64,000 nucleotides of DNA from Curtobacterium sp. MCLR17_032. GTDB taxonomy: Bacteria > Actinomycetota > Actinomycetes > Actinomycetales > Microbacteriaceae. The DNA is taken from positions 1,240,001 through 1,304,000 of the forward strand of contig NZ_CP126268.1 of the NCBI RefSeq assembly GCF_003234795.2, given 5' to 3'. The position numbers and the translations under genes were made by a program. The notes beneath the pieces are model-generated. The model was not told where the DNA came from and made no database searches. It saw nothing but the letters and a program-made list of their open reading frames with translations. Positions 16,069 to 48,772 of the stretch are shown here, in pieces (the first letter of the stretch is position 1; each line of letters opens with the position of its first letter).

Positions 16069-16141
<73 letters not shown>

Positions 16142-16142
<1 letters not shown>

Positions 16143-16147
16143 CCGAA
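16142..16147 (+). repeat. Left copy of the 6-bp direct repeat (ACCGAA) flanking the element
   Basis: ACCGAA directly abuts the left 17-bp terminal repeat; the identical hexamer abuts the right terminal repeat at 48767-48772. It is either a target duplication or the crossover spacer of a tyrosine-recombinase site. Confidence 0.75.
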
Positions 16148-16164
16148 GGGGTGTCTTAAGAACC
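16148..16164 (+). repeat. Left terminal inverted repeat (17 bp) of the element
   Basis: GGGGTGTCTTAAGAACC, perfect inverted match to 48750-48766. A partial direct copy, GTCTTAAGAACC, follows at once at 16165-16176, which suggests a pair of recombinase-binding sites at this end only. Confidence 0.8.
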
Positions 16165-16176
16165 GTCTTAAGAACC

Positions 16177-16230
16177 CAACAACGAAGAGAGGCCCGCAGC
16201 CATAAGGCTGCGGGCCTCTCTTCGTTGTTG
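16177..16230 (-). terminator. Strong hairpin terminator of the recombination operon
   Basis: A 25-bp perfect stem (arms 16177-16201 and 16206-16230) with the loop ATAA, just after the stop of the DDE-type gene read on the minus strand. It also separates tRNA-Pro transcription from the element. Confidence 0.75.
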
Positions 16231-16243
16231 TGGGTCTCCGGGC

Positions 16244-18328
16244 TCAGGCGGGCCTGGTTGCCGCCTTCGCTCGCTTCGACCGACTGGTCTTCGTGGCGGC
16301 TGCTCTCTCGGCGGCGACCTTCGCCGCCTTCTCCCGTCGAGCCTTGGCGCGCGCCTGGCGGACCTCGAGGTCCGGAACTCCACCCGGGAGAGTGCCTGTG
16401 TACTCGTTGAAGAACTTACGGTCTCTGCGCCGCTGGATCGGCGGTTTGCGAGGGGGACGGTTCTCGGCTGCTCGGCGGTCTTCGATCTCCTTTGCCTTGA
16501 GGAAGTCGCAGATCTGCTTGATGTTGAGCGCGACGAGCAGGAACGTCAGGAAGACGTAGCCGGATGCGAAGCCGCGAGACTGTCTGTTCAGGTGGTCGTG
16601 CAGAGACCCGTACTTCGGAGCCTTGAGCATCGAATTTCCGTTCTCGATGAGGTTGCGCGCGTAGCCGTGGAAGTCGGTCCACTCGCGGGACTTGTACCGC
16701 AGGGCTTGGGTGAGCGGCGGCAGGTGCTCCTTCGGGAACTTGACGGAGTCCTGACAGCAGATGAGGGGAAGGTCGTCGCCGACCGGGTAACCGGGTTCGC
16801 TTGGGTCCACCTCGTCCATCGTCAGCAGCTTTGCTTCGGATACCCGTGCTCGGGTCTTCTTGAGCGGGCACTTGATACGAGGGCTGTCGCCGGATGCGGG
16901 GCACATCATGGTGATGCTGCCGTCGGCGTTGGGACGTGACTTCGGTCGCACCTCCCACTTTTCCCGCTCGTCGACGCGCGCACGGTAGGTGACTTCATCG
17001 ATCTCGCCGTCCTTGACGTGCTTACTGGCCATCTGGAGCGACATGAGCATCGCTGGGCAGTAGGCAGCGCTTTCGATGAAGATCGCTCCGGCATACCCGC
17101 CTCGGGGACCGAGGCGGTCGTCACGCCATTCGGTGCTGGCCTCCCAGCCGAGCTTCCGGACCGGGTCGTAAAGCCGCTCTGGCTTTGCATTGGCGAAGTA
17201 CTCCATGTCGGCGTCCGCGATGCCAGGCAGGTGTCCGGCGCGGACGATCTGCTCGAGGACGAACGCGGCGGCTTCGACGTTGCCGCTGCCCGGGATGCTC
17301 AAGGTAGCGCCGAGGATGAGCTGTGGAGCCTTGCATCGGTCGTCCGTCTTGAGGAACACGCGGCGTGCGATCGTGGCGTTCCACCCCCAGAGGTAGTCCT
17401 CCTCAGTCTCGTACTGCGCCATCTGACCCGGGGGAGCGTCGATGCGCTTCGACGTCTCGGTGACCTTCCATGCCGCGAAGGGGGACACCGGGCCCGAGCG
17501 TGGCTTACCGGCGGCTGCCAGTACACGGTCCTTCTCGATGCGCTTGGCGATCTTGTCCTTGTTGTGCGACATGCCCGTGGTCAAGGGAGCACTCATGTGC
17601 GTGCCGTCGAAGCTGACGTCGACCTCCTTGCGCTCGGGCGCGTTGCGGATGGCGCGCGGCTGGAGGTAGAACGACATGGTGAGGAATCGAGTCATGAACT
17701 CGGCAAGGCGCGCCTTGCCGATGGCTTCCCGCTCCTCATCGAGGTTCTCCATGGTTGCGGCGTTCTCCTCGACTGTCTTCGCCGTGTAGCGGTCTTCTCC
17801 GAGGTGAGGGTCGACGATTGAGATGAAGCGGCGGTGGGCGTTGCCGACGTTTTGCTGCCAGTTCTCGACCTTCATGAGCGACTTCTTGCTGTTCGGCTTG
17901 GGCAGGCCGAGCTCTTCGCGGGCTCCGTCGGTGAGCATGCCGTAGAAGACAGACCCGATTTGGAGGATGAGTTGCGGCTGACCCGCAGTGGTCACGAGCA
18001 TCCACCCGATGAGCAGGTTCTCGACGGAGATGAGTGCGGGAGCGCCTCCGTTCGACTGCCGGAAGCCCTCTTCATGGCGCCAGATGGCGTAGGCGTCCAT
18101 GACCCCGGTGGCCCTGAGGCGCGCCTTGGCGAGCTTGACGGTCTTCCGGTTGAAGACGGAGAAGCCGGAGCGGGTGTCTGCGATCTCGTTGTCGCGGAGG
18201 CGGATCTTCGAGAACGCTTTTTCCTTCGCGATGTCGTAGACCGAGCTTTCCTGCACCGACGCGCTCTTGCGTCCGTCCGTCTCGAAGAACCGCATCGCCT
18301 CGCCGTTGCTGATGCCGTGGCCGCTCAT
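16244..18328 (-). CDS. Large DDE-transposase-like protein, third gene of the recombination module
   Basis: 694 aa. It looks like a DDE recombinase of a type frequent in actinobacterial mobile elements: VDVSFDGTHMSAP (first Asp near 241), GIADADMEYF (second Asp, 373 or 375), GGYAGAIFIESAAYCPAM, a Cys pair region MMCPASGDSP, and ARNLIENGNSMLK (Glu near 563) followed by a helical segment and a Lys/Arg-rich tail. The triad assignment is mine, by eye. Its ATG overlaps the stop of the preceding recombinase gene by 4 nt (ATGA), so translation is coupled. Role: probably DNA cutting or joining for the element. Confidence 0.7.
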   Translation of the reverse strand: MSGHGISNGEAMRFFETDGRKSASVQESSVYDIAKEKAFSKIRLRDNEIADTRSGFSVFNRKTVKLAKARLRATGVMDAYAIWRHEEGFRQSNGGAPALISVENLLIGWMLVTTAGQPQLILQIGSVFYGMLTDGAREELGLPKPNSKKSLMKVENWQQNVGNAHRRFISIVDPHLGEDRYTAKTVEENAATMENLDEEREAIGKARLAEFMTRFLTMSFYLQPRAIRNAPERKEVDVSFDGTHMSAPLTTGMSHNKDKIAKRIEKDRVLAAAGKPRSGPVSPFAAWKVTETSKRIDAPPGQMAQYETEEDYLWGWNATIARRVFLKTDDRCKAPQLILGATLSIPGSGNVEAAAFVLEQIVRAGHLPGIADADMEYFANAKPERLYDPVRKLGWEASTEWRDDRLGPRGGYAGAIFIESAAYCPAMLMSLQMASKHVKDGEIDEVTYRARVDEREKWEVRPKSRPNADGSITMMCPASGDSPRIKCPLKKTRARVSEAKLLTMDEVDPSEPGYPVGDDLPLICCQDSVKFPKEHLPPLTQALRYKSREWTDFHGYARNLIENGNSMLKAPKYGSLHDHLNRQSRGFASGYVFLTFLLVALNIKQICDFLKAKEIEDRRAAENRPPRKPPIQRRRDRKFFNEYTGTLPGGVPDLEVRQARAKARREKAAKVAAERAAATKTSRSKRAKAATRPA

Positions 18329-19314
18329 CGGGTGGCTCCCGCGACGCCCGTGATGGTGTCGAGGTAGTCGTTGATGTTCGTCGAGGAGGCGTGAGCGTAG
18401 TAGTCGGTGACGGAGGCGAGTGCGGTGAAGCCGGCGACTTCTGCGATGACGTCGAGCGGAACGTTTGCGTTCAGGAGGCTGACGATCCATCCGGAGCGGA
18501 GACGCGTCGGGGTCAGCCGAACTGGTCCCGGGTGCGCGCTGATGAACGACTGGATCGGACGCGGTGCGTACTCCTCGAACTCGTAGCCGTGGAAGAGGAG
18601 GTCCTCGTCAGTAGTGAGCGCCTGGCCGAGCGTGCGGATCCACTTCGCGCTCACCGGGACGCTGCGCTCAGAAGCGCCGCGCACGGTGACCCAACGCCGG
18701 TCGCCGTCGACGACGATGTCGCTAGTGCGCACAGCGATGATCTCGGCCGGGGTGAGCCCGGCCCCGGCACCGAGCGCGAGGAGGGCCGCGCCGTTGCGTC
18801 GCGCCTGCGCGGTGGATAGGGCGATCTGCCACGAGTGCAGCTGGGCCATCTCTGCGCTTGTGTAGGGCGCCAAACGCTGTGATGGGGGCGGGGCCAGGCG
18901 GCTGGTGCGTTCTCCGGTGAGGCGGGTGGTAACCGCGCCGAGGTGTCGAGTGATGTCGAAGCGGTACACGTCGGAGTGGCTCTGAAGGACAGTGTTGACG
19001 TAGAGCGAGATGGTCGAGTCGCGGAAGACGCGCTCGGCGGTGAGGTCGCAGCCGGTGTGCATCCAACGCCACGACACCAACCCCGCCACCATGGAGAGCA
19101 GCCGGCGTGTGTTCGAGTACGAGGTCGGCGCCATGGCGCGGACGACCTCGCGGACGAGCGGCCCCGTGGTTGCGTAAGCGGCGCGGTTGATGATGGGCAC
19201 GTAGTTCTCGATGGCGTCGTCGATCTTCTTCGCCGTGGACGAGTTGATCGGGCGGGCGTGCGGCTTCGGTCGAGAAGAGCGCGAAGTCGGGGTTTCGGTC
19301 GTGTTCTTGATCAC
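18325..19314 (-). CDS. Tyrosine-recombinase-like protein with degenerate catalytic residues (second of module)
   Basis: 329 aa. C-terminal half has the tyrosine-recombinase layout: GAGLTPAEIIAVRTSDI (box I), TRLRSGWIVSLLNANVPLDV (box II), AGFTALASVTDYYAH with a candidate Tyr. The conserved box I Arg (GLR) is replaced by Thr, the HxLR His by Thr and the LGH His by Phe; the box II Arg and the Tyr remain. The N-terminal half is the DNA-binding core domain type. It may bind the ends rather than cut, or belong to a family with altered residues. Confidence 0.75.
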   Translation of the reverse strand: MIKNTTETPTSRSSRPKPHARPINSSTAKKIDDAIENYVPIINRAAYATTGPLVREVVRAMAPTSYSNTRRLLSMVAGLVSWRWMHTGCDLTAERVFRDSTISLYVNTVLQSHSDVYRFDITRHLGAVTTRLTGERTSRLAPPPSQRLAPYTSAEMAQLHSWQIALSTAQARRNGAALLALGAGAGLTPAEIIAVRTSDIVVDGDRRWVTVRGASERSVPVSAKWIRTLGQALTTDEDLLFHGYEFEEYAPRPIQSFISAHPGPVRLTPTRLRSGWIVSLLNANVPLDVIAEVAGFTALASVTDYYAHASSTNINDYLDTITGVAGATR

Positions 19315-19413
19315 GAGGGGCCCTATGCGGGCCGGTTCGGACCAGCTGGGACCTTCGGAAGTCGGCCCACCGGAGCGGCCCGAGCTGGGCCCACTCGGAA
19401 GGGCACTGTTGCG

Positions 19414-20274
19414 CTAAAGCAAGGGGAGGAACACCCGGTAGCGGTCGAGTGAGGCGTACGTCTGAACGCCCGATTCCAACAGCAATGTGTCGACGGGCGT
19501 GTTCTTGGCGAGTCGTTCGCACAGCCATGTGGAGCGCATCCTTGCGGGCCGGATGTCGAGGTCGGTAGCGGTCCGGCGGACGAATTCGGCGACTTGGCCA
19601 GAGGCCGCCGAGTGCCGTCCGACGCGGAACAGCCAGTCGTCGTGGTCGAGAGTGTCGATGGCTCGACGGAGGACCGGCTGCCAATCGTCCTCCACGGGGA
19701 CCGTTCGCCGGCGGGCATCCCGCACTCGAACGGTGCTGCCATCGAGTGTGACGTCTCGGTGCCGCACGGCGAGCAGTTCACGCGTCGGAAGGCCCGCGCC
19801 GAGTCCAAGAGCGAGCAGAACGCTCGCATCGCGCCGAGCAGTAGCGGTCCCGCGGGTCCTGGCCCAGGAGTACAGCTCCGCACGCTGCTTGGCGTCGTAG
19901 GGAGGGGTCGGTGTTGACCTGCCGATGCCGTGTAGTGGCGTCGTCGGTATCTCGGTGACCACGACTTCGCTGACGCGGAGCAGCTTGCCACGCACCGTAT
20001 TCTTCGTCCCTCGGCTCATCCCTGGCATGCCATTGATGACGAAGCTCTCGATGCGGCTGCGACGGAACATCTTCTGCCGGTCCAGGTCGAGCGCCTTTGT
20101 CTGCCAACACCACAGCACGAAGGGCGTGAGGAACGGATACAGCGACCGAGACTCGACACCGAGCTCAGCGCTGACGTCGTCCACAAGCGCGGTGAGAAAT
20201 GGCCCGATCCGATCCCACCATGGCAGCGCGAGCAGCGGTGTGTAGGTCGGGGACGAGGAGGAGTCCGAAGTCAC
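19414..20274 (-). CDS. Tyrosine-recombinase-like protein with degenerate catalytic residues (first of module)
   Basis: 286 aa from GTG 20274, chosen because GGAAGGG lies 9 nt upstream. Related in layout to the next gene: GLGAGLPTRELLAVRHRDV (box I, GLR Arg replaced by Pro), ARMRSTWLCERLAKNTPVDT (box II Arg kept, His lost) and YASLDRYRVF with the candidate Tyr. Residues are thus partly lost, as in its partner. It heads the leftward operon; a 99-nt gap separates it from the second gene. It is divergent from the 20443 gene. Confidence 0.75.
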   Translation of the reverse strand: MTSDSSSSPTYTPLLALPWWDRIGPFLTALVDDVSAELGVESRSLYPFLTPFVLWCWQTKALDLDRQKMFRRSRIESFVINGMPGMSRGTKNTVRGKLLRVSEVVVTEIPTTPLHGIGRSTPTPPYDAKQRAELYSWARTRGTATARRDASVLLALGLGAGLPTRELLAVRHRDVTLDGSTVRVRDARRRTVPVEDDWQPVLRRAIDTLDHDDWLFRVGRHSAASGQVAEFVRRTATDLDIRPARMRSTWLCERLAKNTPVDTLLLESGVQTYASLDRYRVFLPLL

Positions 20275-20442
20275 GACGTGCAGCCCTTCCGTAATGCGAC
20301 CTGCGGAACGGTAGCGATCTCGACGACGGAAGTCGTCCTGTTTCTGGCCTCGGATCGGCGTCTGGCGGGGTGGCAACACGAACCGCTATCCGTCCGCGCA
20401 TAGGCGTCCCGAGGCCGACATCCGGCCTCGGGAAGGAACCCC

Positions 20443-21427: not shown

Positions 21428-22363
21428 ATGACCGAACCTCTTCTTCGCGCCCTCCGCGAAGTGATGCTCGACGAGACTGAGCCCTTGGCCGGTCTGCTGC
21501 GAAAGTGTCTCCTGCTTGGTGCCGAGACTGGGTCGGAGTCTTTGAGGACGTGGGCGCGAGCTGAGCTCAAGGGCTACCCGCCCGAGGGTGACGACGTTCC
21601 GGCTTACCGAAAGCTCCACGGAGTGCCAATGGTCATGGATTCGATGAGTGGAAACACTTGGGCAAAAGGGCAGAATCTAGCCCGCCTTCAAGTCCCGGCA
21701 AAGGCTCGAGAATACGTCCCGGAGTTCATCTCGTTCGTGCAGCCGGTTGAGGAGTTGGCGCAGCTTGCGCAGCAAAAGCATCTCAACTTTGGACACGCAG
21801 GTCTCGCGATGGCGCAGACTGTATGGAACAGCGAACTCGGGCCGTATCAAAGTGTCGTTTCGCTTGCGTTTGTAGTCCCTGGCTCTTTCTTGCGTGGGAT
21901 TTTGGCGCAGGTGCGCACGAATCTTGTCGATATGATCGCTGACCTCACAGCGAGCACTCCCTTAACGGAGTTGCCTGGGCGAGCAAGTGTGGACGCCGCG
22001 GTGAGAGAGCATGTGGGTGATGTCTACAACACCACAGTTCTTCAGCCAAGCGGCCCAACGGCGATCGGGCGGGAGTCGTCGGCCAACGCAGGTCTGAGCA
22101 TCGCGGATGCGGTAGCCCTGCTCAAGGAGGTAGCCAAGGCCGCAAACCAGTTGGAGCAGTCACAGCAAGCTGATGTCCAAGCTGCTGTGCGAGACCTCGA
22201 GGCCGCGATGACCACGGAGGGAGCTGAGTCGGGTGAAGTCTTGCGGCGCACCGGGAAGCTCCGGAGTTTGACCGAGAAGCTTGGTGGTACCGCTTTGACG
22301 GCAGCAACGAGCAGCGCCGTGTCCGCGATCACCGAACTTGCTCTGCAAGGCGCATTCGGCTGA
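21428..22363 (+). CDS. AbiTii-domain protein, probable abortive-infection factor
   Basis: 311 aa. Residues 1-75 (ETEPLAGLLRKCLLLGAETG, LRTWARAELKGYPPEGDDVP, YRKLHGVPMVM) match the AbiTii N-terminal domain seen in phage-defence proteins. The middle is a mixed alpha/beta region, and the C-terminal 100 residues are Ala-rich helices that could form a coiled coil. I see no nuclease motif. Monocistronic, between a microsatellite and an IS30-family copy. Confidence 0.75.
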   Translation: MTEPLLRALREVMLDETEPLAGLLRKCLLLGAETGSESLRTWARAELKGYPPEGDDVPAYRKLHGVPMVMDSMSGNTWAKGQNLARLQVPAKAREYVPEFISFVQPVEELAQLAQQKHLNFGHAGLAMAQTVWNSELGPYQSVVSLAFVVPGSFLRGILAQVRTNLVDMIADLTASTPLTELPGRASVDAAVREHVGDVYNTTVLQPSGPTAIGRESSANAGLSIADAVALLKEVAKAANQLEQSQQADVQAAVRDLEAAMTTEGAESGEVLRRTGKLRSLTEKLGGTALTAATSSAVSAITELALQGAFG

Positions 22364-22402
22364 TAGGGGCCACCCAGGCCGGCGTGAGAGGCGCCGTTAC
22401 CG

Positions 22403-22494: not shown

Positions 22495-23691
22495 TCAAGG
22501 GGTCGTTGCAACGGGTGGTTGTTTCGGTTCTGACAGTAGCTGCTCGAATGCTTCTGCCGGGGTCCGGTAGTCCAGCGTCTTGCGGGGTCGTCCGTTGAGT
22601 TCCGTGGCGACTTCGAGGAGACGTTCCGGGCTGTGGATGCTGAGGTCGGTGGACTTCGGGAAGTACTGCCGGAGCAGGCCGTTGGTGTTCTCGTTCGAGC
22701 CGCGCTGCCAGGGCTTGTGCGGGTCGCAGAAGTAGATCGCCAAGTCGGTGGCGAGGGTGATGTCTTTGTGCCGGGCAAGCTCCGTGCCCTGGTCCCACGT
22801 CAACGACCGACAGAGATGCACGGGCAGGGTCTGGATGGTGGGGATCCGCGCGTCGCGGACGGCGTCGGCGCTGTGCCCGTTGGGTAGGTGCAGCAGCATC
22901 ACGTAGCGGGTGGTGCGTTCGACGAGAGTGCCGATAGCACTGCGCGCGTTCGTACCGACGATCTGGTCTCCTTCCCAGTGACCGGGAACGGCCCGGTCAT
23001 CAGCTTCGGCGGGGCGTTCACTGATCAGGATCATGTCGCGGATCTTCGACCACGACGCCCGCCTGGGCTCACCACGATGCCGGCGGATGGCACGGCCGGT
23101 GCGGAGATGTGTGTGCAGGTCAGCGCGCAGGTGGCCGCGGCCCTGGACGAACAGGGACTGGTAGATCGTCTCGTAGGACACGTGCATCTCCGGCCGGTTC
23201 GGGAAGGACCGGGCCAGGTCATCACGGATCTGCTCCGGGGACCAGTTCCGCACCAACCGCAGCTCGACCTGCAGGGCGAGCTCGACCCGGTCGAGCTTCC
23301 GCGGTTTGGGCCGGCTCGCTCGGACGCGGCACCGCTTCTCGGCCGCGTATGGCCGGTAATCACCATTGCGGGAGCTGTTCCGGGCGAGCTCTCGACTGAT
23401 CGTTGATGGCGCCCGCCCGAGTTCTGCTGCGATCCGGCGAATACCGACGCCAGCCAGCCGCAGGTCGGCGATCCGGAGCCGTTCCTCCTCGCTCAAGTAC
23501 CGGCCGGATCGAGGTGTTCGCTCGAACGGGTTCTTCCCGCGAGCGGCTTTGAACCATCGGTAACCCTGACGTGGATGCACCCCGACAGCATCGCAAGCAG
23601 CGGGGCTGCTCATGCCCTGTCCGAGTAGCTCCCAGAATCGCGCCTCCCGGGCACGCTGCTCCGGCCTGGATCCCATCTGCAACACTCCCAA
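22495..23691 (-). CDS. IS30-family transposase
   Basis: 398 aa. N-terminal helix-turn-helix (SAFE-type IS30 layout: EERLRIADLRLAGVGIRRIA, STISRELARNSSRNGDYRPY), then the DDE domain with GHWEGDQIVG (Asp), LTWDQGTEL (Asp) and NENTNGLLRQYFPK (Glu). A full-length ORF that runs through the left terminal repeat. It moves only its own IS. Confidence 0.92.
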   Translation of the reverse strand: MGVLQMGSRPEQRAREARFWELLGQGMSSPAACDAVGVHPRQGYRWFKAARGKNPFERTPRSGRYLSEEERLRIADLRLAGVGIRRIAAELGRAPSTISRELARNSSRNGDYRPYAAEKRCRVRASRPKPRKLDRVELALQVELRLVRNWSPEQIRDDLARSFPNRPEMHVSYETIYQSLFVQGRGHLRADLHTHLRTGRAIRRHRGEPRRASWSKIRDMILISERPAEADDRAVPGHWEGDQIVGTNARSAIGTLVERTTRYVMLLHLPNGHSADAVRDARIPTIQTLPVHLCRSLTWDQGTELARHKDITLATDLAIYFCDPHKPWQRGSNENTNGLLRQYFPKSTDLSIHSPERLLEVATELNGRPRKTLDYRTPAEAFEQLLSEPKQPPVATTP

Positions 23692-23713
23692 TCACGGTGG
23701 TGTTGCAACGACC
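22501..23713 (-). mobile_element. IS30-family insertion sequence
   Basis: 1.2-kb unit with 12-bp inverted ends (GGTCGTTGCAAC at 22501-22512, complement at 23702-23713) around one transposase gene. No clear target duplication is visible. It looks intact, so it may be a later arrival within the larger element. Confidence 0.8.
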
Positions 23714-23825
23714 AGCTGAACCCAAGATCGGCTATCGGACGCTCGGTGCCTCCGCGACAACACCAAACCGTGGAGAGGCCGAGTACGTCGGGAGAGGATC
23801 ACGGTGTGAACTTTTCTTCCGCTCG

Positions 23826-24431
23826 ATGCGGATACAAGGTGTGAGCACAGATAGTGAGCTGATCCGGCTGTCGCTGGACCAACCGTCCGCGTTCGGGGAG
23901 CTGTACGCCCGACACGCACGCGCCGTGTACCGCTACGCGGCAAGCCGCGTCGGAGCCGAGGGTGCAGAGGACGTGTTGTCGAACACGTTCCTCGCGGCCT
24001 TCGAGCGCCGCAAGCGCTTCGACACGACCGTCGCGTCCGCGCTGCCGTGGCTGCTCGGATTCGCCACTATCGCGATCCGGCAACACCGCAGACAGGAACA
24101 CCGCCACCTGAGTGAATCCGTCGACGAAGACGCGCTCGCACTGGTCGGCGTCGATGACGTCGCCCAGCACGCAGCCGCCCTCATCGAGGTCATGCGAGCG
24201 GTCGCGCGACTGTCGCCACGAGACCGCGACGCGTTGCTGCTGCACACGTCCGCGGACCTCAGCTACGAGGACGTCGCCGCGGCGCTTCACGTCCCCGTCG
24301 GCACAGTCCGATCACGCATCAACCGGGCGCGAACGCAGCTTCGGACCGCAACAGGCAGGGGCGCAGCCCCGGAACAGGAACGAACCAATGGACGAACTGC
24401 AACTGCTCCGATCGGGGACTGTCATGTCTGA
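23826..24431 (+). CDS. ECF-like sigma-70 family RNA polymerase sigma factor
   Basis: 201 aa. Region 2 (SAFGELYARHARAVYRYAASR, AEDVLSNTFLAAFERRKRFD) and region 4 (LSPRDRDALLLHTSADLSYE, DVAAALHVPVGTVRSRINRA) are both present. It should direct RNA polymerase to a small regulon. The start could also be GTG 23841. The next gene overlaps it by 44 nt, the usual pairing with a membrane or anti-sigma partner. Confidence 0.85.
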   Translation: MRIQGVSTDSELIRLSLDQPSAFGELYARHARAVYRYAASRVGAEGAEDVLSNTFLAAFERRKRFDTTVASALPWLLGFATIAIRQHRRQEHRHLSESVDEDALALVGVDDVAQHAAALIEVMRAVARLSPRDRDALLLHTSADLSYEDVAAALHVPVGTVRSRINRARTQLRTATGRGAAPEQERTNGRTATAPIGDCHV

Positions 24432-29192: not shown

Positions 29193-29657
29193 CAGGGCTC
29201 CGGTCGTCGGGTTCATCCGGGGAGGCATCTTCACCACCGGTCCGCGCGAAGATCGCGCCTGCGGGGCCCGCACGACTGGGTCGTCGCAATCATCCACTTG
29301 GCTTGGCTGCGGGTCGGCCCCCGCGATGGTGCCTGCTGCGGTTGCGAACCACCGCCGGCTTCCTGGAAAGACCATCGCACAAGGTGCATCGGATCAGCGC
29401 TACACCCGATATATGACAGTCTCCCTGATCGATGCCCTTCGCGATGAAAGGCGATGTGCGCCCGCACTCACCGCCGAGCACGAATCACCGTCACGTTGAG
29501 GCGATTCGCTGCCCCATGCCCGAGTCAATTGACTCTGCCATGAACAGGCCTCACATTGCCCATCGCGGATGACTGAGCCGCAACGACCGCAGCCGAGCGC
29601 ATGAGCAGCTCTCTCGTTCGGGCTACGCTGTTGCCGATCGAGAACACGGGGGACGAG
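29193..29657. other. 465-nt region without a supported gene
   Basis: Several overlapping open frames on both strands, all of random composition. I find no RNA gene or repeat here. Confidence 0.5.
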
Positions 29658-30515
29658 ATGATCACCTTTACTGACTTCCTGCCAGTACCTGACCCATCGC
29701 GGACGAAGGTGAAGTTCAACATGCGGGCCGGAGTCGGCGGTTCGGCTGCATGGGACCTCTTGCTGGATGACGAGGAAGGCTGGCTCGATCTCAACCGATA
29801 CCGCGATCGGGGACCCAGCAACACCTATGGCAACGCGAAGTACGTTCTCACTTTCGCCCAGCTTCCCTCTCATGGTCCGCAGTACTTCGTGTTCGGTGGC
29901 TTCTACGAGGTGACCGCGCTGGAGCCAACGGTCTATGAAGGGACTGGCTACGCGCTGCGCCCCATGCCGCAACACGCGGAGTACATCAAGCGGCTCGTGA
30001 TTCGCCTTGCGAAGCCGATCGGCCGTGACGTCTATCTACGTCGTTACGAGTCGCTGCAGGACGGTCCGCTGAACCCGGAAGTGTTCGAGCTCTCACCTCA
30101 AGTAAAGCTCGGCGGTTTCCCCGGGTACCAGCACGTGCTCCTCTCACATGCCAGCATGCAGCGCATCATCTCCTACGGAGAGCCGAGCTGGCGAGAGGCG
30201 CTATCGAGCGTGAAGGGTGTCTACGTCATCACCGACGCCGCGACGGGCAAGCTTTACGTCGGCTCGGCGTCAGCGGAAAGCGACGGCCTGTGGGGTCGAT
30301 GGTCCGACTATGCGAATGTCCGAAACCTGACCGGCGGCAACAAGGAATTCGAAGCGCTTCGACGGACGCTTGGCGACGACTACATCGTCGCGAACTTCCA
30401 GTACACGATCCTGGAAGTGTTCGACCCGAAGACCCGGCCGGAACTGATTCTGCAACGGGAGAACTTCTGGAAGAAAGCGCTTGTGAGTCGTCATCACGGG
30501 ATGAACCACAACTGA
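29658..30515 (+). CDS. GIY-YIG nuclease family protein
   Basis: 285 aa from ATG 29658, preferred because GGGGGA lies 4 nt upstream (ATG 29601 is an alternative). The C-terminal third carries the GIY-YIG core: KGVYVITDAATGKLYVGSAS near residue 187, then LWGRWSDYANV and a late Glu (LQRENFWKKAL). The N-terminal 180 residues form an unknown beta-rich domain, perhaps for target recognition. Stand-alone GIY-YIG proteins of this layout occur in defence islands and mobile elements. Confidence 0.75.
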   Translation: MITFTDFLPVPDPSRTKVKFNMRAGVGGSAAWDLLLDDEEGWLDLNRYRDRGPSNTYGNAKYVLTFAQLPSHGPQYFVFGGFYEVTALEPTVYEGTGYALRPMPQHAEYIKRLVIRLAKPIGRDVYLRRYESLQDGPLNPEVFELSPQVKLGGFPGYQHVLLSHASMQRIISYGEPSWREALSSVKGVYVITDAATGKLYVGSASAESDGLWGRWSDYANVRNLTGGNKEFEALRRTLGDDYIVANFQYTILEVFDPKTRPELILQRENFWKKALVSRHHGMNHN

Positions 30516-31311: not shown

Positions 31312-31399
31312 GAGAAGCTACCGGCCGTGTCTCATGTTCGTTATGTGATGAGGCGGAATTGAAGCACCTCCCGGCGTCGGGGTGCGGTTGACTGACCGC

Positions 31400-34741: not shown

Positions 34742-34986
34742 CAGCTGCGCTCGTCTGGGGTGTCGGGTCGGGTGATGGCGATAGGCCAGCGGGTTTTTTC
34801 GAGGAACGGTTCCCATCCGGTGCGGGTGTCGCCGTGGGCTGGTTCGCAGATGGTGCCGGTCTCGGTGCCGCGGATGATGACCTGCCGCAGCACCGTGCTG
34901 GACGGGTCGCGGAAGAACACGTGCCCGTGGACGCCGGTGGCGTCGTAGGCGATGTTGAGGAGGAACAGGTCGGGGCGGCTGCTCAT
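34741..34986 (-). CDS. Small unknown protein, paralogous to 35887 gene and to N-terminus of 34983 gene
   Basis: 81 aa. The first 40 residues (LFLLNIAYDATGVHGHVFFR) match LLSLTLAYDDTRFFGSVMFT of the 35887 protein and LVSMHLSNDRILWGHVLLED of the 34983 protein, so this is a repeated beta-rich domain. ATG 34986 overlaps the previous stop as ATGA; the stop overlaps the next start as TGATG. Confidence 0.6.
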   Translation of the reverse strand: MSSRPDLFLLNIAYDATGVHGHVFFRDPSSTVLRQVIIRGTETGTICEPAHGDTRTGWEPFLEKTRWPIAITRPDTPDERS

Positions 34987-35846: not shown

Positions 35847-35886
35847 CGGCAACTATCTCCAAGGGGTGGGCGTGAGCAGAGCGGGG

Positions 35887-41082: not shown

Positions 41083-41331
41083 ATGACTGCCGTGCACTCC
41101 GCTCACCCGAGAGATATGTCAGAGCGCCGCACAGCGAGCGGTGGGTCCATCGCTCAGGTCGTGGCCGCGTCCTTTGCCGGAATGGCCATCCGTGACGCCA
41201 GCGACCACATTGTGGAACCGTGCTCCAGCGGTGCGGCATTCTCCAACACACCGACCACATCGCAGTGGTCTGTCGTGCATGCCGGCGACTACCGCGATTG
41301 GACCCAGGATTGTTCGGCGGTGGTCCTGTGA
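41083..41331 (+). CDS. Small unknown protein translationally coupled to hamA
   Basis: 82 aa from ATG 41083. Ser/Ala/Thr-rich (RRTASGGSIAQVVAASFAGM, SSGAAFSNTPTTSQWSVVHA); no membrane helix is certain. Its TGA overlaps the GTG of hamA by 4 nt (GTGA), which argues that it is translated and belongs to the Hachiman operon. It is not part of the described two-gene system. It could also be a leader needed only for coupling. Confidence 0.5.
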   Translation: MTAVHSAHPRDMSERRTASGGSIAQVVAASFAGMAIRDASDHIVEPCSSGAAFSNTPTTSQWSVVHAGDYRDWTQDCSAVVL

Positions 41332-42356
41332 GCAACGCCGTGCTTCCGCTCTCGCTAATGGACCGAGAGCGATTCTTGGCGCTCTTTTACCCGCCCGAGC
41401 GTGTCGATGTCCATACCAAGACAGTCCTTCACCTACACGTCCTGCGCGTCGATGGTGGCGACTTCGCGATCAAGCCTCTGTTCAAAGAGCTGGTGAACAA
41501 CAGCATCAGCTATGTGCTGTCGCGGCAGAATCTCGGAAAAATGACCAGTGACCTGAGCCGGATGGGCGAGTTTTTTCGTAAGGCCCAACTGCAGTTTAAG
41601 GCCCCGGATTCGAATGCGGGTGAGGGAGGTGAGCTTCTCCTGTACTCCTTTCTCGAAGGGCACCTCGGAGCGCCCAAGATCCTCTCGAAAATGGAACTCA
41701 AGACGTCTGCGGAGCACTACGTGCACGGCACTGACGGTGTCCACCTGCTCAAGATTGCCGAAGGCGAGTATCAGCTGATCTTTGGTGAATCGAAGATGTA
41801 CGGCGATGCCACGGGTCATGTCGGGTCGAGCGCTAAGCGCGGCGTCCAGGCCGCTTTCGCCTCTATGGGTAAGGTTCAAGAGGACGACTTTGACTTCGAC
41901 ACGTGGCTTGTCGAGTCCGAGCTGCTGAAGGAGAGCCTCGACCCGGCGAAAGTTGAGCTTCTTGCGACGATTCTGCTTCCGCCTGCCTCGGGTGGTGCGG
42001 AGATCACGAAGTCCAACGCCTTCGGCGTCTTCATCGGCTTCGAGCTTGACGTCACGGAGTATCCGTTCGCTGACCACACTGCCGCCGAGATAGAGGAACA
42101 CCTCCGGAGCATCGCCCTCTCGGCGATCACCGATCAGGTCGACACAATCAAGGCTGAGATCCAGAATCGCGGCCTCGGCGGCTACCAGTTCCACATCTAC
42201 GCCGCACCGTTCCTCAAGCGAAACGTCAACGGCACTGTGCGTGGCATCGAGGATATCCGTATCGACTTGGCATCGGAGCTGAGCGGGAAGAACCTCCGTC
42301 CGCCTAAGACGAAGACAGGGACGAAGACGAAGACGAAGGCGAAGAGGACGAATTGA
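41328..42356 (+). CDS. hamA: HamA, DUF1837 nuclease subunit of Hachiman defence system
   Basis: 342 aa from GTG 41328 (an ATG lies at 41358). Signature of HamA/DUF1837, a PD-(D/E)xK-type nuclease: GEGGELLLYSFLEGHL (Glu102), HGTDGVHLLKI (Asp136) and QLIFGESKMYG (Glu154-x-Lys156). A Lys/Thr-rich tail (KTKTGTKTKTKAKRTN) ends the protein. Hachiman is a described anti-phage system in which HamA is held in check by the HamB helicase and degrades DNA on activation. The stop overlaps the hamB TTG by 4 nt. Confidence 0.88.
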   Translation: MSNAVLPLSLMDRERFLALFYPPERVDVHTKTVLHLHVLRVDGGDFAIKPLFKELVNNSISYVLSRQNLGKMTSDLSRMGEFFRKAQLQFKAPDSNAGEGGELLLYSFLEGHLGAPKILSKMELKTSAEHYVHGTDGVHLLKIAEGEYQLIFGESKMYGDATGHVGSSAKRGVQAAFASMGKVQEDDFDFDTWLVESELLKESLDPAKVELLATILLPPASGGAEITKSNAFGVFIGFELDVTEYPFADHTAAEIEEHLRSIALSAITDQVDTIKAEIQNRGLGGYQFHIYAAPFLKRNVNGTVRGIEDIRIDLASELSGKNLRPPKTKTGTKTKTKAKRTN

Positions 42357-45016
42357 CCGGGCGTACTGCCGCTGACGTGCTCAGCGAAATGATCGTCGCT
42401 CGCCCCGACTTTCAAACGGTGTTCGGCAACCTCGAGCGATCCGTCGCTACCTCGTTCCTTTCGAACGACGCATCCAATGCGCTCGACGTGACTGCGTCGA
42501 AGCACCTGCTCCGGTACGCCGATGTGCTGTCGCACTCCAACGACCCGCGTCACCGCGAGCTCGCGTATACGACGATCGCGCTTCTTCGGGAGTACGACGC
42601 TGCGGTCGGGCTCGGGGACGAGCTCAGCGACCGAGTTCTCGCCATCGCCGAGGCGGTCCTGGTACAGCTCGGCAACTTCCCCGGGATCAGCACGCTCCAG
42701 AAAGGCGTTGGCAGCCGATACGCTTTGCCGCTGTCGCGCGGCACGCTGCGCATTGCAAAGGAAGTCCTGCAGCGCACTAACAAGGGTGATGCCATTCTGA
42801 CGGACACGCAGTACGCGATCACGGAGAAGATGCGAGGTGAGGATTACTTCAGCTTCTCGGGCCCCACCTCGCTTGGAAAGTCCTTCATCATCAAGGACGC
42901 GCTCTACGACATCGTGCGTCGCGACGAACTCAACGACCACTGCGTCGTCGTTCTCGTCCCGACCAAGGCGCTGATAGGGCAGACGGCGGCCGACCTTCGG
43001 CGGCTGCTTGCGGAGGTGCCGGAGGTCAACGTCGCGACCTACCCCTCGCTCCCGAAGCTACTGCGCCAAAAGTATCGGCGCACGATCTTCGTGCTCACGC
43101 CCGAGCGTCTGCTGCGCTACCTCGCCAACCCGGTCCGAGACATCGACTACCTTGTGGTCGACGAAGCGCAAAAGGTCATCGCGAAGAACGATGCTCGAAG
43201 CTCGCTGTACTACCACGCAATCGTCGAAGCAACGCGGCGCTTCGCTACCAAGCTGCTGTTCGCATCCCCGAGCATTGAGAACCCGGAGCTGTTTCTTGAG
43301 CTGTTCGGGAAGGCGTCCAACGGTGCTCTCACGGTACGCGAACGCACCGTAGCTCAGCAGCGCTACTTCGTCGACCTGGTCGCAAAGAAGCAGTACTACT
43401 TTTCTGGTCTGGACGCCACATCGCAGGAGATGGAACAAGCGCCGACTGAGACAAACGTGGTCGACCTGGTGCTAACGCGCAGCGGCGACCGCAAAGCCAT
43501 CATCTACATCAACGGATCGCTCAAATCTGCCGAGTTCGCGATGCGTCTCGCCGCGAAGCGTCCCGTCGTGGCCAACGACAAGGTGGACGAGTTGATCAAG
43601 CACGTACGCGACTACGTGCACAAGGACTACTTCCTCGGGAGCACCCTCAGCCGGGGTGTCGCGTTCCACCATGGAAAGATGCCACAGGAGGTGCGCGAGC
43701 GCGTCGAAGAGGAGTTCTCCGACCCCGAGTCGCCGATTCAGTTTGTGGTCTGCACATCGACTCTGCTTGAGGGGGTCAATCTGCCTGCGAAGAACATCTT
43801 CGTGCTGAGCGACAAGCACGGGAACAGCTCGTTCACCAAGATCGACTTCGAGAACCTAGCCGGACGTGCCGGCCGCCTCACCTACGACTTCTCCGGCAAC
43901 GTGGTCTGCGTGCGAGAGGAGGCCAACCGATGGGCCGACACGACTCGCGCACTCATCCCTCGCGCCGAGCCGGCGAAGGCAGAGAGCTTCCTCGTGAGCC
44001 CGCCGAGCAATCGGAAGAAGGACTACACCGACATCGCGCGCATTCTTCGTGGAGAAGCTCTCCCCGGAACGCCGTCTGTCGACCAGCAGCGAAGCGTCGA
44101 ACAGTACGCATCGATTCTGACGCTTCACCAAATCGACAACCAGCAGACGCCGCTGCGCAGTCACTTCCTCGACAAGGTGCAGGGCGGTCGTGACCTCCTG
44201 AAGAAGGCTGCCGCATCAGTGGTCGTGCCGGCCGATGTCCTACGACGATCGCCGAACATCTTGTCGGAGTATCAAGGCAAGGTCTGGCTGGAGCTCACCG
44301 AGGACGCGGCTGAGCCTCTCGTGGCGGATGACGCAGACCTCGACGATGTTCAGACATTCCTCAAAGCCCTTCGTCGCCTTAGCGGGTTGTACGGCTGGCG
44401 TCACACTGAGGTGTCGGGTACCGACCCGCTCATGCCGAGGAATGCGGACGCCGAGGGCTGGGACCGTCGTTTGTACTACTGGGCGCTGCTCATGCGGGGC
44501 TGGGTACGCGGCGATCCGATTAGCCGGGTGATCTCGAGCTCCATCGCCTACTACTCGCGCACCGGATGGATCACCTACCGGGACTATTCGCGGGAGGAAA
44601 GCCTGGTTCGCGAGCCCTTCGACCGGAATTCCGCCAAGCACATCAATCTCATCATCGAGTGGACGCTTCGCGACATCGAAGGTGGCCTTCGTTTCCGCAT
44701 CATTGGCTACCTCCAGAACTTCTTCGACGTGAGCGTTGCAGCGCAGGGTCGTGCGTCATCTGGGCTCAATGTGGCGACTCTCGTTGAGTACGGCACGGCC
44801 GATCCGCGCGCCGTACAATTGCAGGAGGTTGGGTTCGGTAGGCCCGTGGCAGCGGAGTTGCTGACGGACCATTTGGACGCACTGTCCTTCTCGGCTGTCG
44901 ACGAGCTCGAGGGCTTCGATCATGAGAAGGTTCTTACGAGTACTGAGCTATCCGATGAGGCGCGCGCCGAGATCGAGAACATCATGGTGAAAATTGACGT
45001 CGAGGTTGCAGGCTGA
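42353..45016 (+). CDS. hamB: HamB, helicase subunit of Hachiman defence system
   Basis: 887 aa from a TTG that overlaps hamA. Superfamily 2 helicase: Walker A SGPTSLGKSFIIKD (169-182), VLVPTKALIGQTAADL, DEAQ box DYLVVDEAQKVIAKND (from 265), AFHHGKMPQEVRERVEEEF, CTSTLLEGVNLPAKNIFVLS and motif VI NLAGRAGRL. The N-terminal 150 residues and the C-terminal 300 are helical domains without known motifs. In the described system HamB senses DNA damage or loading and releases HamA. Confidence 0.88.
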   Translation: MTGRTAADVLSEMIVARPDFQTVFGNLERSVATSFLSNDASNALDVTASKHLLRYADVLSHSNDPRHRELAYTTIALLREYDAAVGLGDELSDRVLAIAEAVLVQLGNFPGISTLQKGVGSRYALPLSRGTLRIAKEVLQRTNKGDAILTDTQYAITEKMRGEDYFSFSGPTSLGKSFIIKDALYDIVRRDELNDHCVVVLVPTKALIGQTAADLRRLLAEVPEVNVATYPSLPKLLRQKYRRTIFVLTPERLLRYLANPVRDIDYLVVDEAQKVIAKNDARSSLYYHAIVEATRRFATKLLFASPSIENPELFLELFGKASNGALTVRERTVAQQRYFVDLVAKKQYYFSGLDATSQEMEQAPTETNVVDLVLTRSGDRKAIIYINGSLKSAEFAMRLAAKRPVVANDKVDELIKHVRDYVHKDYFLGSTLSRGVAFHHGKMPQEVRERVEEEFSDPESPIQFVVCTSTLLEGVNLPAKNIFVLSDKHGNSSFTKIDFENLAGRAGRLTYDFSGNVVCVREEANRWADTTRALIPRAEPAKAESFLVSPPSNRKKDYTDIARILRGEALPGTPSVDQQRSVEQYASILTLHQIDNQQTPLRSHFLDKVQGGRDLLKKAAASVVVPADVLRRSPNILSEYQGKVWLELTEDAAEPLVADDADLDDVQTFLKALRRLSGLYGWRHTEVSGTDPLMPRNADAEGWDRRLYYWALLMRGWVRGDPISRVISSSIAYYSRTGWITYRDYSREESLVREPFDRNSAKHINLIIEWTLRDIEGGLRFRIIGYLQNFFDVSVAAQGRASSGLNVATLVEYGTADPRAVQLQEVGFGRPVAAELLTDHLDALSFSAVDELEGFDHEKVLTSTELSDEARAEIENIMVKIDVEVAG

Positions 45017-45018
45017 AA

Positions 45019-46071
45019 GTGAAAGCCCTTCGTCTGCTACTTGGGGCGGTGTCTGCCGCCTTAGTGGTGGTCTCGGCTTGGCTCGTATTCGCGTCTGCCC
45101 GATCCGGAGGCGTGCGCGTCGACGGATCGATCTGGGAGGCGCTGAGTGGTGTCGGCACGGTGGGTGCAACCGTCGTAGCAGTGTGGCTCGCCGGTCGATC
45201 CCTGCGCCAAGAGCGAGGCAGCATCGCGCGTCTTGTCTCTGCATGGGTGACCGTGGACTTCCGAGTCAACGACGACCGCAGGACCTACCGGCGCGTGACG
45301 ACGCTTCACGTGGGCAACGAAAGCAATGAGTCGGTGTTCGAAGCGTTCGTGAATGTCATCGTCGGGGCGGAGCGCATCTCGCTCGGGAGCCTCAGCTCTC
45401 CGCGTCCGATCGCGGTGCTGCCTCCACGGTCGGTTCGGGAGTACGACATCTCAGGCGCAATCACCGGTCAACTTGACGTGAGCGATCCACGAGCAGAGCT
45501 TTCCTTCACTGCGCCGAACGATACGAAGTGGCTGCGGACGGCCGAAGGGAATCTCGAAGAAGCCTCTAACCAAGGCACGAGCTGGAAGCCAATGCCTGTC
45601 GCAACCCCAGCTCAGATCGGCAAGGAGGACCCGACCAACCCGAAGATGCCCGTGTTTGCGTTCTTGAGTGCCGTATGGGAAGCCGCGGACGCCGAAGCAG
45701 AGGGACGCGCGTCAGATCCAGCCTTGGATCCTTTCGGTGCGGTCGCGAGCTTCGCAGAAGGCTGGGAAGGGGCGGACTGGGCGGATATCGGACGGCAGTT
45801 GCCTCCATTCGCGCCGACCACCTTCGTGGACTATCGCACGGAACATGTGGCCTACGTCAAGCTGGTTGGCGATCCGGAGGCTCAAGGTTCCGTTGTCGAA
45901 GGACCTGATCCAATCTGGGTCAAAGAAGTACGATTCGTGACTCTAGTGCTCGACCGATCTGTCGGCTGGCGAGTGTTCGGAGTCGGCGTGCCCGTGGAGC
46001 CTGAGGAGATTCAGTTCCCCGAGGATGCGCTGAGGCTGCCGGCGAAATCTGAAGGCGGTCTCACGGCCTGA
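45019..46071 (+). CDS. Membrane protein encoded directly after hamB
   Basis: 350 aa from GTG 45019, only 2 nt after the hamB stop. Two N-terminal helices (LLLGAVSAALVVVSAWLVFA and VGTVGATVVAVWLAGRSL) put about 280 residues in the cytoplasm: a beta-rich domain (RRVTTLHVGNESNESVFEAF) and an acidic C-terminus. Spacing implies co-expression with Hachiman. Canonical Hachiman has no such gene, so this may be an added effector or regulator, or just a passenger. Confidence 0.6.
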   Translation: MKALRLLLGAVSAALVVVSAWLVFASARSGGVRVDGSIWEALSGVGTVGATVVAVWLAGRSLRQERGSIARLVSAWVTVDFRVNDDRRTYRRVTTLHVGNESNESVFEAFVNVIVGAERISLGSLSSPRPIAVLPPRSVREYDISGAITGQLDVSDPRAELSFTAPNDTKWLRTAEGNLEEASNQGTSWKPMPVATPAQIGKEDPTNPKMPVFAFLSAVWEAADAEAEGRASDPALDPFGAVASFAEGWEGADWADIGRQLPPFAPTTFVDYRTEHVAYVKLVGDPEAQGSVVEGPDPIWVKEVRFVTLVLDRSVGWRVFGVGVPVEPEEIQFPEDALRLPAKSEGGLTA

Positions 46072-46262
46072 TGCACGATAGGCGTCGTGAGCGGAGCGGA
46101 GCGGGGTGCGGATGTGACCGAGCGGCGTACTCGCTTGCGGGTAGTCGTCGACCTCATGCCGACGCTAGTGAGGCGCCGCTGTTGATTGGGCTCGAGGGAC
46201 GTTGCTCCGCCGGGAGAGCGCGCCGGGCGTGCGTGGCGGAGATGCTCCGGCATGATTGAGCG

Positions 46263-47600
46263 ATGATCACCGTCATTCCGGACACCAATGCTCTCTTCGG
46301 GACTCGGTGGATGACGACGGGTGGAGGTGTCACGCTCGCGGCACATGCTGCCAACGGCGCTTGCCTAGTCGTCTTGCCGGAGGTCGTCGTGGACGAACTC
46401 GAGCGGAGGCACAGCGATCGCTTCCTTGATGAGCGCAAGTCGGCACGTGCAGCTCTGCGCTCGATCAAGAAGTCCATCGACATGGCCTCTATCGAGCACG
46501 AGTTCGATAGCCGTGTCGACGAGGTCGGAAGAGAGCGGGGGGCGCTGCTGGCCCGTTCCGGAATCGAACTCGCGCGGACCCCGGACAGCGGGGTGCGTGC
46601 CCTTGTGAAGCGTGACCTTGCGCGTCGTCATCCGTTTCTCGAGACCGAACAAGACGACAAGCCCAAGTCCTTCGGATTCCGGGACGCAGTGATCTGGGAG
46701 ACGATCCTCGTCTTCCTGCAGACCGACGACGAGAAGCGCGTTATTCACTTCGTCACGAAGGACCGAGGGTTTATCGGCAAGGCTGCCGGGAAGCCGGCCC
46801 TCCACCCGCACCTGCTCGAAGATCTCGACAGGCTGGGCATCGAGGGCAGCCGGGTGGTGTTGGTCGGCACTCTGGAGAATGTCGTCGCGGTCATTGAAGC
46901 TGCGCTTGCCGAGGCCGAGGCCGAGGCTGCCGAGACCGCAGCGAACTCCGCCGCGCCGACTGAACTGGCGCTCCTTACGGCCGCCAGTGCTCGCAGTCGA
47001 GCGACCGATGCAGCTCGCCGTGTCGGCTTGGTGCGCGTTGCCACTGATGCACTCGAGTCGCTCGTCGGGAAGGACATCACCGAGCAGATCAGCTACGGAG
47101 GTGAGTATCAAAACCCTGACTTTGCGGACTTGGACTACCCCTCGGCGCTTGAAACTGGTCACATCGTGGCAGTTGACCTTGAGACAGAGATCTCGTTCGA
47201 GCCGCCGAACGGCGACATTGTCACGGCCCGTGCGGATCTCGTTCTCTCGATTGATGGCGTTGTATCGAAGGGCGACTACTTCGGCGACGAGGAGGACGAT
47301 CTTTGGCTCGTGGGTGAGCTCAACGACTACTACTTCGAGGTGTCAACTGAGATACGTGTCCAGGCGGTGATGCAGATCGACACCGAACAGGGAACCGGCC
47401 ATCACGAAGACGTCGAGATCGCCCTCACGAACAATCGCAATCCGCCACCTCCAACCGACCCCACCAGCGCGACGCTCGATTTTGTTCTCGACTCGAGCGC
47501 GTCGGAGAGCACTTCTGACGTTCGGGAGGTCGAGCCCGATCCAGACCCTGGAAGCACAGAGTTGGACCCGGACCCCGGAGACCCTGGTGACACTGTCTGA
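46263..47600 (+). CDS. PIN-domain ribonuclease-like protein (DUF4935-type)
   Basis: 445 aa. PIN fold with the first acidic residue in VIPDTNALFG, then LVVLPEVVVDELERR (second), FRDAVIWETILVFL (third) and VIHFVTKDRGFI (fourth); all four catalytic acids appear present. The centre is Glu/Ala-rich; the C-terminal half is beta-rich and the end is an Asp/Pro-rich tail (PDPDPGSTELDPDPG). PIN enzymes cut RNA; the target is unknown. The next gene overlaps it by 14 nt. Confidence 0.75.
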   Translation: MITVIPDTNALFGTRWMTTGGGVTLAAHAANGACLVVLPEVVVDELERRHSDRFLDERKSARAALRSIKKSIDMASIEHEFDSRVDEVGRERGALLARSGIELARTPDSGVRALVKRDLARRHPFLETEQDDKPKSFGFRDAVIWETILVFLQTDDEKRVIHFVTKDRGFIGKAAGKPALHPHLLEDLDRLGIEGSRVVLVGTLENVVAVIEAALAEAEAEAAETAANSAAPTELALLTAASARSRATDAARRVGLVRVATDALESLVGKDITEQISYGGEYQNPDFADLDYPSALETGHIVAVDLETEISFEPPNGDIVTARADLVLSIDGVVSKGDYFGDEEDDLWLVGELNDYYFEVSTEIRVQAVMQIDTEQGTGHHEDVEIALTNNRNPPPPTDPTSATLDFVLDSSASESTSDVREVEPDPDPGSTELDPDPGDPGDTV

Positions 47601-48228
47601 CCTCGCTGCGGATGCGATCGCCGCTCTGACCGACACCCGCTGGTCGGTCACCGATGCGCCGGCTCACGTGCCAGCGAGACCGGGTCTCTACGCGATCTTC
47701 GGCGACGAGCGGGCGCACCGAGAGCTGGGCCTCCTCGAGGACGCCGGGGCCCGCAGTGCGCCGGACCTCCCGCTCTACGTTGGCAAGGCCGAGGCGAGCT
47801 TCGTAGAGCGCGATTTGAAAGACCACTTCGCTGCGGTGCCGGGCAGCACAGCGCGCACGGGCGGGTCCACTGTGCGGAGGTCGTTCGCTGCGCTGCTGCG
47901 CGGCCGGCTCGACTTGCACGGTGTGCCGCGGAACCGGGAGATCCCGGGGTACTTCTCGATGTACTCGCTGGCAGGCGACGGTGACGCGCAGCTCACGACG
48001 TGGATGCACGCGCGCCTCTCGCTCGCCGTCTGGGCGGCACCGGTGCAGATGAGCGTGAAGCTCGTCGATGTCGAGACTCAGCTCATCCAGCATTTCACGC
48101 CGGTGATCAACATCGACAGGAATCCTCGGAAGCTCGCGCGGCTCGGGGTAGCGCGCAAGGCGATGAGTGCCGAGGCGAAGGCGTGGCGGCCGGCACAGGC
48201 CGCTCGCGAAGCGGAGCGTGGCCAATAA
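47587..48228 (+). CDS. GIY-YIG-like protein coupled to the PIN gene
   Basis: 213 aa from GTG 47587, with GGAG 6 nt upstream. Core signature: ARPGLYAIFGDERAHRELG near residue 31 and LPLYVGKAEASFVERDLKDH near 61, i.e. the GLY...YVG pair of GIY-YIG nucleases, plus a late VETQLIQHFTPVINIDRN with the expected Glu. It overlaps the PIN gene, so the two probably act together. Different in sequence from the GIY-YIG protein at 29658. Confidence 0.7.
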   Translation: MTLSDLAADAIAALTDTRWSVTDAPAHVPARPGLYAIFGDERAHRELGLLEDAGARSAPDLPLYVGKAEASFVERDLKDHFAAVPGSTARTGGSTVRRSFAALLRGRLDLHGVPRNREIPGYFSMYSLAGDGDAQLTTWMHARLSLAVWAAPVQMSVKLVDVETQLIQHFTPVINIDRNPRKLARLGVARKAMSAEAKAWRPAQAAREAERGQ

Positions 48229-48749
48229 ACGGCTCTGCGGGGACGCCGAGCGTGAGCGGCTCCACGCGGCGCTCCTCGCCGAGGAGGTCGTCTTGCGCGA
48301 TCGCTGAGGCGAAGACGATCCTTCCGTCGACTAGGGGACTGCTCGCGGTGACCGCGGCGCGGGTCATCTCCACCTCGAAGCGGCGGAGCTGGACGGCTGA
48401 CCTGCGTCAGGTGGCTACGGCGTCGCTCACGCACGAGGGGTCATAAGGCACGATCCGGATCACGTCGGCTTCCCACGTTGAGGTGTTCAGCGCGAAATGC
48501 GACGCGGCGAGTGATCTGGTGAACGTGCTCCGCACACAGCAGGCCGTTGTGTCAGAAGCGTCTTCGTGACGGATCCCACGAAGGGGTACTCGCAGATCGG
48601 GTCAACGCACAAGAACGGCGACCGGAGAAACACCTGATCAGAGGCCCGTCATCCGGGCCTCGGTTCCCGTCGGAGGATAGGCCGATGCCCGTCGCGGGAT
48701 ACAGCCTTGTCTTGTGCCTTCGACGGCCGCATCGTCTCAGGGATCCGGA
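48229..48749. other. Right end of the element, no intact gene
   Basis: Short open frames only. On the minus strand around 48480-48610 two frames together suggest a decayed Cys/His zinc-binding segment (HNGLLCAEHVHQITRR), too short to name. An 8-bp hairpin (48641-48661) could end transcription. The left-end module has no counterpart here. Confidence 0.45.
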
Positions 48750-48766
48750 GGTTCTTAAGACACCCC
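48750..48766 (-). repeat. Right terminal inverted repeat (17 bp) of the element
   Basis: GGTTCTTAAGACACCCC, exact complement of 16148-16164. Unlike the left end, no second copy lies inside it. Confidence 0.8.
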
Positions 48767-48772
48767 ACCGAA
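48767..48772 (+). repeat. Right copy of the 6-bp direct repeat (ACCGAA)
   Basis: Identical to 16142-16147 and in the same orientation, immediately outside the right terminal repeat. Confidence 0.75.

Follow-up and report, generated by a model that had tools for sequence, protein, structure and literature searches.

How a 32.6-kb block of DNA came to lie directly at the 3′ end of a tRNA gene without breaking it is the question raised by a 64,000-nucleotide stretch of the genome of Curtobacterium sp. MCLR17_032 (NZ_CP126268.1, positions 1,240,001 to 1,304,000), here called the window. The block carries on its tRNA side a module of three genes, A, B and C, of which C adjoins the tRNA. We consider it probable that this element belongs to a family of cargo-bearing DDE transposons which insert at one precise point of tRNA genes and of at least one transfer-messenger RNA (tmRNA) gene. 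The family is apparently undescribed, as no description was found in the literature, with preprints and most subscription papers lying outside the coverage.

An earlier interpretation of the window from its letters (the sequence-only reading) had proposed perfect 17-bp inverted ends with the hexamer ACCGAA directly outside both, and both proposals were confirmed (Table 1). The sequence GGGGTGTCTTAAGAACC is exact at the left end and, on the opposite strand, at the right end; no further match with up to three mismatches exists within the 64 kb, where 0.08 were expected. All three occurrences of CTTAAG in the window fall at the two ends of the element, and the 12-mer GTCTTAAGAACC is present in two tandem copies at the left end and in one copy at the right end. 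By our own reading the acceptor stem of the tRNA-Pro(ggg) called by ARAGORN ends at position 16141, so that ACCGAA begins at the discriminator base; the tRNA bases upstream of the hexamer have no second copy at the right end. Just inside the left end lies a terminator-like hairpin (−54.8 kcal/mol, z-score −11.3), which probably stands in for the displaced terminator of the tRNA; similar hairpins were recognised by eye in relatives.

When the element and one hexamer are taken out, tRNA-Pro, ACCGAA and a terminator follow each other in series. The sequence-only reading had derived this joined arrangement and suggested a search for it in relatives, which we carried out in 66 Curtobacterium genomes, allowing three mismatches at most. 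The joined pattern was matched in 16 genomes. In 13 of them the sequence runs from tRNA-Pro through ACCGnn to the terminator hairpin, and ARAGORN, applied to nine of these matches, called tRNA-Pro in all nine. Judged by sequence, these 13 genomes carry the empty site; the other three matches (L098, L101 and L106) were rejected as unrelated sequence.

Homologs of C occur in 55 of the 299 family genomes and, by profile search, in 20 of the 396 phylum genomes, the own genome being counted in both; we take the family to be Microbacteriaceae and the phylum Actinomycetota. The best 30 family loci, the window among them, and 22 phylum loci besides the window were read, with loci L134–L136 left out of the tRNA scan. 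An intact tRNA gene faces C with its 3′ end in 27 of the 30 family loci, while in L007 only a 3′ part of tRNA-Pro, some 38 nt as judged by eye, is present and L017 is cut by a contig end. A tRNA, or a tmRNA in L118, occupies the corresponding place in 14 of the 22 phylum loci; L126 looks like a tandem junction, and L132 shows a T-arm-like sequence with no ARAGORN call. The targets comprise Pro, Ser, Leu, Met, Ala, Gln, Gly and Tyr tRNAs and one tmRNA, and all of them face C in a single orientation. At 26 of the 27 family sites whose tRNA is intact, L029 being the exception, the element starts with GGG about 5–7 nt from the discriminator base, as judged by eye. The same module thus stands beside similar ends in many genomes, as the sequence-only reading had expected. 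These comparisons support an insertion that is exact, oriented and duplicating, located at the discriminator base, and that leaves the tRNA sequence intact.

Two of these relatives stand apart. The one at the 3′ end of a tmRNA gene (L118, genome G648) likewise shows a 6-nt spacing from the acceptor end, by eye. The own genome holds a second, distant copy of the module (L137, C1:715900-735899) at tRNA-Gln(ttg), with two A/B-like open reading frames (ORFs) and C.

To characterise the repeat, 29 elements were compared (20 from the family, the window element, the own second copy at tRNA-Gln and seven from the phylum sample), each right end being sought as an inverted end followed by the element's own repeat in 14.7 to 60 kb of downstream sequence. 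Both ends were placed in 17 elements of 5.5 to 49.7 kb, and in each the repeat copies on either side are identical. Among these 17, 16 different repeat sequences occur (ACCGAA twice), with lengths of 6 bp in 12 elements, 5 bp in three and 7 bp in two. For 6-bp repeats and up to five mismatches of 17, the own hexamer was found in 12/29 elements versus 4/725 for the hexamers of other elements; up to seven mismatches gave 13/29 versus 35/725. Viewed from the ends, 187 inverted-end-like sites were recorded, and the own hexamer follows in 13 of them (two in G035) where 0.046 were expected. The 5-bp repeats of G080, G608 and G539 were obtained with up to four mismatches (null 0/522), the values at up to five being 4/29 versus 5/522. 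The 7-bp repeats, taken without a null comparison, belong to G190 (perfect 16-bp end) and G734 (four mismatches). A repeat that varies with the target while its two copies agree fits target duplication, and the repeat is therefore best read as a target site duplication. Inverted ends and a short duplication of a variable target, the marks of DDE transposons, are both present.

Tandem arrays point to where the target signal lies. G035 and G006 each show a right end, the repeat and a further left end in succession, and a third copy in G084 lies directly against a right end carrying the same repeat. Occupied sites are thus open to new elements, and these arrays together with the tRNA fragment in G084 suggest that the signal lies in the 3′ part of the tRNA gene. 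A tree of C was built from 30 of 46 loci, 16 loci with short matches being dropped, including L001, the entry for the window, whose match is split; L002 stands beside it. Pro elements cluster, as do most Ser elements; Met falls within the Pro clade and Ala within the Ser clade, Leu elements form more than one group, and Gln stands beside one Leu group. Since one C clade mostly corresponds to one tRNA isotype, the choice of target probably resides in the module.

The catalytic columns of the module proteins were read in 19 A, 19 B and 18 C proteins of the family sample, more distant relatives being inspected by eye; those of A and B were anchored on XerC-like, XerA and XerD alignments. C is an RNase H-fold transposase whose D, D, E residues are intact in 17 of 18 copies, and its start overlaps the stop of B (ATGA). 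In the window C these residues are D255, D388 and E576 (numbering of 16244-18370). A and B retain the tyrosine-recombinase fold and the second arginine (Arg II). The full set of Arg I, His II, Arg II, His/Trp III and Tyr is found in 0/19 A and 0/19 B, with both histidines absent from all 38 proteins. As the catalytic set is lost in A and B and kept in C, it is most likely C that would perform the chemistry. Searching the PDB by sequence with the C profile brought no meaningful match, so a fold comparison was used, in which the C model matches Tn5 transposase. The NCBIfam IS1182 model matches 4 of 18 C proteins at E ≤ 1 (best 1.6e-6) and not the window C. When a protein database was searched with the C profile, 7,995 candidates were scored and nine proteins obtained, for which the source names shown are "hypothetical protein". 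No homolog of the window C was found at E ≤ 1e-5 among 50,697 phage records, and a phage origin was rejected. At least one A/B-like gene stands beside C in 19 of 21 elements. In addition, six Streptomyces plasmid records match C; the two examined (L157 and L158) are linear plasmids with a helix-turn-helix gene and one A/B-like gene preceding C, and one of them lies near type I-E cas genes.

The sequence comparison supports insertion from the discriminator base in a single orientation, the C gene adjoining the tRNA; 5–7 bp of the target are duplicated, the ends are inverted repeats and the 3′ end of the tRNA is kept. We propose that C cuts the element ends and joins them to the target. A and B, as recombinases without chemistry, may bind the ends of the element, the T-arm and acceptor end of the tRNA gene, or both, and place C there. 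We lean slightly towards the wider view that this is a Tn7-independent class of target-selected transposons across Actinomycetota, in which a dead recombinase pair reads the T-arm and acceptor end, directs a Tn5-like C to the discriminator base and delivers defence islands with tRNA and tmRNA unbroken. By analogy, the role of A and B as selectors would resemble that of TnsF of Tn6022, an inactivated tyrosine recombinase experimentally shown to select targets (Faure et al. 2023, PMC10293859) and the closest mechanistic precedent. Tn6022 is likewise a DDE transposon with an inactivated recombinase-domain protein for target choice, a target site duplication and a fixed chromosomal site. It is Tn7-like, however, encodes TnsA, TnsB, TnsC and TniQ besides a TnsF that bears zinc fingers at its N terminus, and has comM as its target (PMC10293859), whereas the present family has a Tn5-like C, two recombinase-like proteins, no TniB match in the element and tRNA or tmRNA targets. 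The closest known system in target is Dada, a eukaryotic DDE superfamily with 6–7 bp duplications at tRNA and other small RNA genes (Kojima and Jurka 2013, PMC3706591). It too uses fixed points in such genes, with different families at different RNA genes; unlike the present elements, Dada inserts inside the target sequence, and the available text mentions no recombinase-like partner (PMC3706591).

Several observations weigh against the proposed reading. The right end was not placed in 12 of the 29 elements, namely in G239, G091, G031, G087, G139, the own second copy, G464, G475, G602 and G577, in G218, where the own 6-mer follows an end with eight mismatches, and in G150, where the own 5-mer follows one with five (null at that level 5/522); for G239, G464, G602 and G577 the search covered only 15–40 kb. 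Three of the 12 six-bp cases (G182, G241 and G212) rest on ends with five mismatches. No tRNA was found in family locus L026, at the expected place in 6 of 22 phylum loci, or within the 14.9 kb read around L157 and L158; the two Streptomyces relatives indicate that tRNA targeting is not universal, and a wider family with other targets may exist. Tn5 was placed first for C by Foldseek alone, at an E-value of only 1.1e-3. Finally, C alone could choose the target.

This last point leads to the alternative that survives best, in which C is a self-sufficient, site-specific DDE transposase reading the tRNA end, and A and B serve end pairing, regulation or immunity. The C tree tracks the target isotype, and in Dada, whose transposases are distantly similar to hAT, P, MuDR and IS256, recognition of the target sequence has been proposed to lie with the transposase itself (PMC3706591). 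A core role of A/B-like genes is suggested by their recurrence beside C, which extends to the two Streptomyces relatives, and Tn6022 provides the experimental precedent for an inactivated recombinase as selector (PMC10293859); we regard a self-sufficient C as unlikely.

Still less probable is a tyrosine-recombinase island, in which active A and B would excise a circle and integrate it by crossing over within a 6-bp core at the tRNA end, C being a passenger or helper. The fold of A and B, the ends facing each other around the hexamer and the 3′ ends of tRNAs as classic integrase sites speak for it. The nucleophile column holds a tyrosine in 4/19 A and 11/19 B, window pair included, and Arg I is retained in 6/19 B, while the position of the catalytic lysine was not reliably assigned; residual recombinase activity of A and B is therefore possible. 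Against it stand the incomplete catalytic sets, the missing second copy of the tRNA sequence ahead of the hexamer, the retained DDE residues and a repeat that changes in sequence and length (5–7 bp) with the target. Of the two origins which the sequence-only reading had offered for the hexamer, these results disfavour the recombinase core with a 6-bp spacer and favour duplication by the DDE protein. That the locus is an ordinary genomic island at a tRNA hotspot, its ends and hexamer due to chance or to a lost unrelated integrase, is extremely improbable: tRNA ends do attract islands and the guanine-plus-cytosine (GC) content of the right flank remains lower as far as about 54 kb, but the same module and orientation, similar ends and exact repeats recur in many genomes at eight tRNA types and a tmRNA, and empty sites exist in the genus.

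A serine integrase was rejected, as no Resolvase match lies within the element, and a Tn7-like transposon was rejected for want of a TniB match there. The sole TniB match of the genome (TnsC/TniB-type ATPase) lies at 179 kb, outside the element, with the control positive in 13 of 14 genomes. The TniQ/TnsD search gave no match in the genome, the control genomes being equally silent.

The proposed target-selected transposon also differs from more familiar elements. IS1182 and the IS4 group resemble it through the IS1182 matches of some C proteins and the Tn5 match of the C model, whereas C is accompanied by A and B, belongs to elements with tens of kb of cargo and is precisely targeted to tRNA genes. 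Tn554-like and recombinase-in-trio elements also combine adjoining tyrosine-recombinase-family genes with a third gene. They depend on active recombinases, whereas here the catalytic residues of A and B are missing and the third gene encodes a DDE transposase. Tyrosine-integrase islands share insertion at the tRNA 3′ end and variable cargo; they duplicate part of that 3′ end, whereas here only 5–7 bp from the discriminator base outward are repeated. To our knowledge, bacterial DDE transposons with a dedicated target selector belong mainly to the Tn7 group, in which an ATPase links selector and transposase. The present transposase is a different one and seems to arrive, with no more than two recombinase-like partners, at a site that is fixed, conserved and non-disruptive. 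If this holds, it would be a second route from recombinase to target selector and would help to explain why defence genes accumulate at the ends of tRNA genes in these bacteria; the related modules, directed at different tRNAs, would form a series for dissecting how the target is read.

Table 1. Features of the element and its insertion site (positions in the window).
Feature	Position	Strand	Basis
tRNA-Pro(ggg), target	16069..16144	+	ARAGORN; discriminator base read at 16142
ACCGAA, left copy of putative target site duplication	16142..16147	.	sequence; varies in relatives
Left terminal inverted repeat, 17 bp	16148..16164	+	sequence match
Two tandem 12-bp motifs GTCTTAAGAACC	16153..16176	+	sequence
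Terminator-like hairpin inside left end	16177..16230	.	folding energy, z-score
C, 694-aa DDE transposase, Tn5-like fold	16244..18328	-	structure comparison, catalytic columns
B, 329-aa tyrosine-recombinase-fold protein, incomplete catalytic set	18325..19314	-	fold, catalytic columns
A, 321-aa tyrosine-recombinase-fold protein, incomplete catalytic set	19414..20379	-	fold, catalytic columns
AbiTii-domain protein, cargo	21428..22363	+	domain and PADLOC searches
Nested transposase with rve core and helix-turn-helix	22495..23691	-	domain search
Sigma-70-like factor (regions 2 and 4), cargo; true start may be later	23571..24431	+	
GIY-YIG protein matching PADLOC UzuA, cargo	29601..30515	+	
KAP P-loop NTPase, cargo	31382..33454	+	PADLOC PifA match
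Hachiman HamA, cargo	41220..42356	+	
Hachiman HamB helicase, cargo	42353..45016	+	
PIN-domain protein, cargo	46263..47600	+	
GIY-YIG catalytic-domain protein near right end, cargo	47482..48228	+	
Right terminal inverted repeat, 17 bp	48750..48766	-	sequence match
ACCGAA, right copy of putative target site duplication	48767..48772	.	sequence
Terminator-like hairpin, directly 3′ of tRNA in empty-site genomes	48773..48811	+	sequence comparison

The element carries phage defence genes (Table 1), short ORFs being outside the search, and a methyltransferase is also among its cargo. By resemblance, we take the nested transposase to be IS30-like. The cargo protein encoded at 34983-35852 has a domain resembling the VbhA antitoxin, at an E-value (6.6e-5) that falls short of the Pfam cut-off, and uncharacterised minus-strand genes adjoin it. 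Directly 3′ of HamB, positions 45019-46071 encode a 350-aa protein that matched nothing in Pfam, NCBIfam or PADLOC and might be an additional partner of Hachiman. Beyond the right end of the element, at 49662-50318, a protein with a predicted pPIWI-associating nuclease domain (pP_pnuc_1, E 3.1e-9) is encoded; as the GC content remains lower to about 54 kb, older islands may have been acquired at this site.
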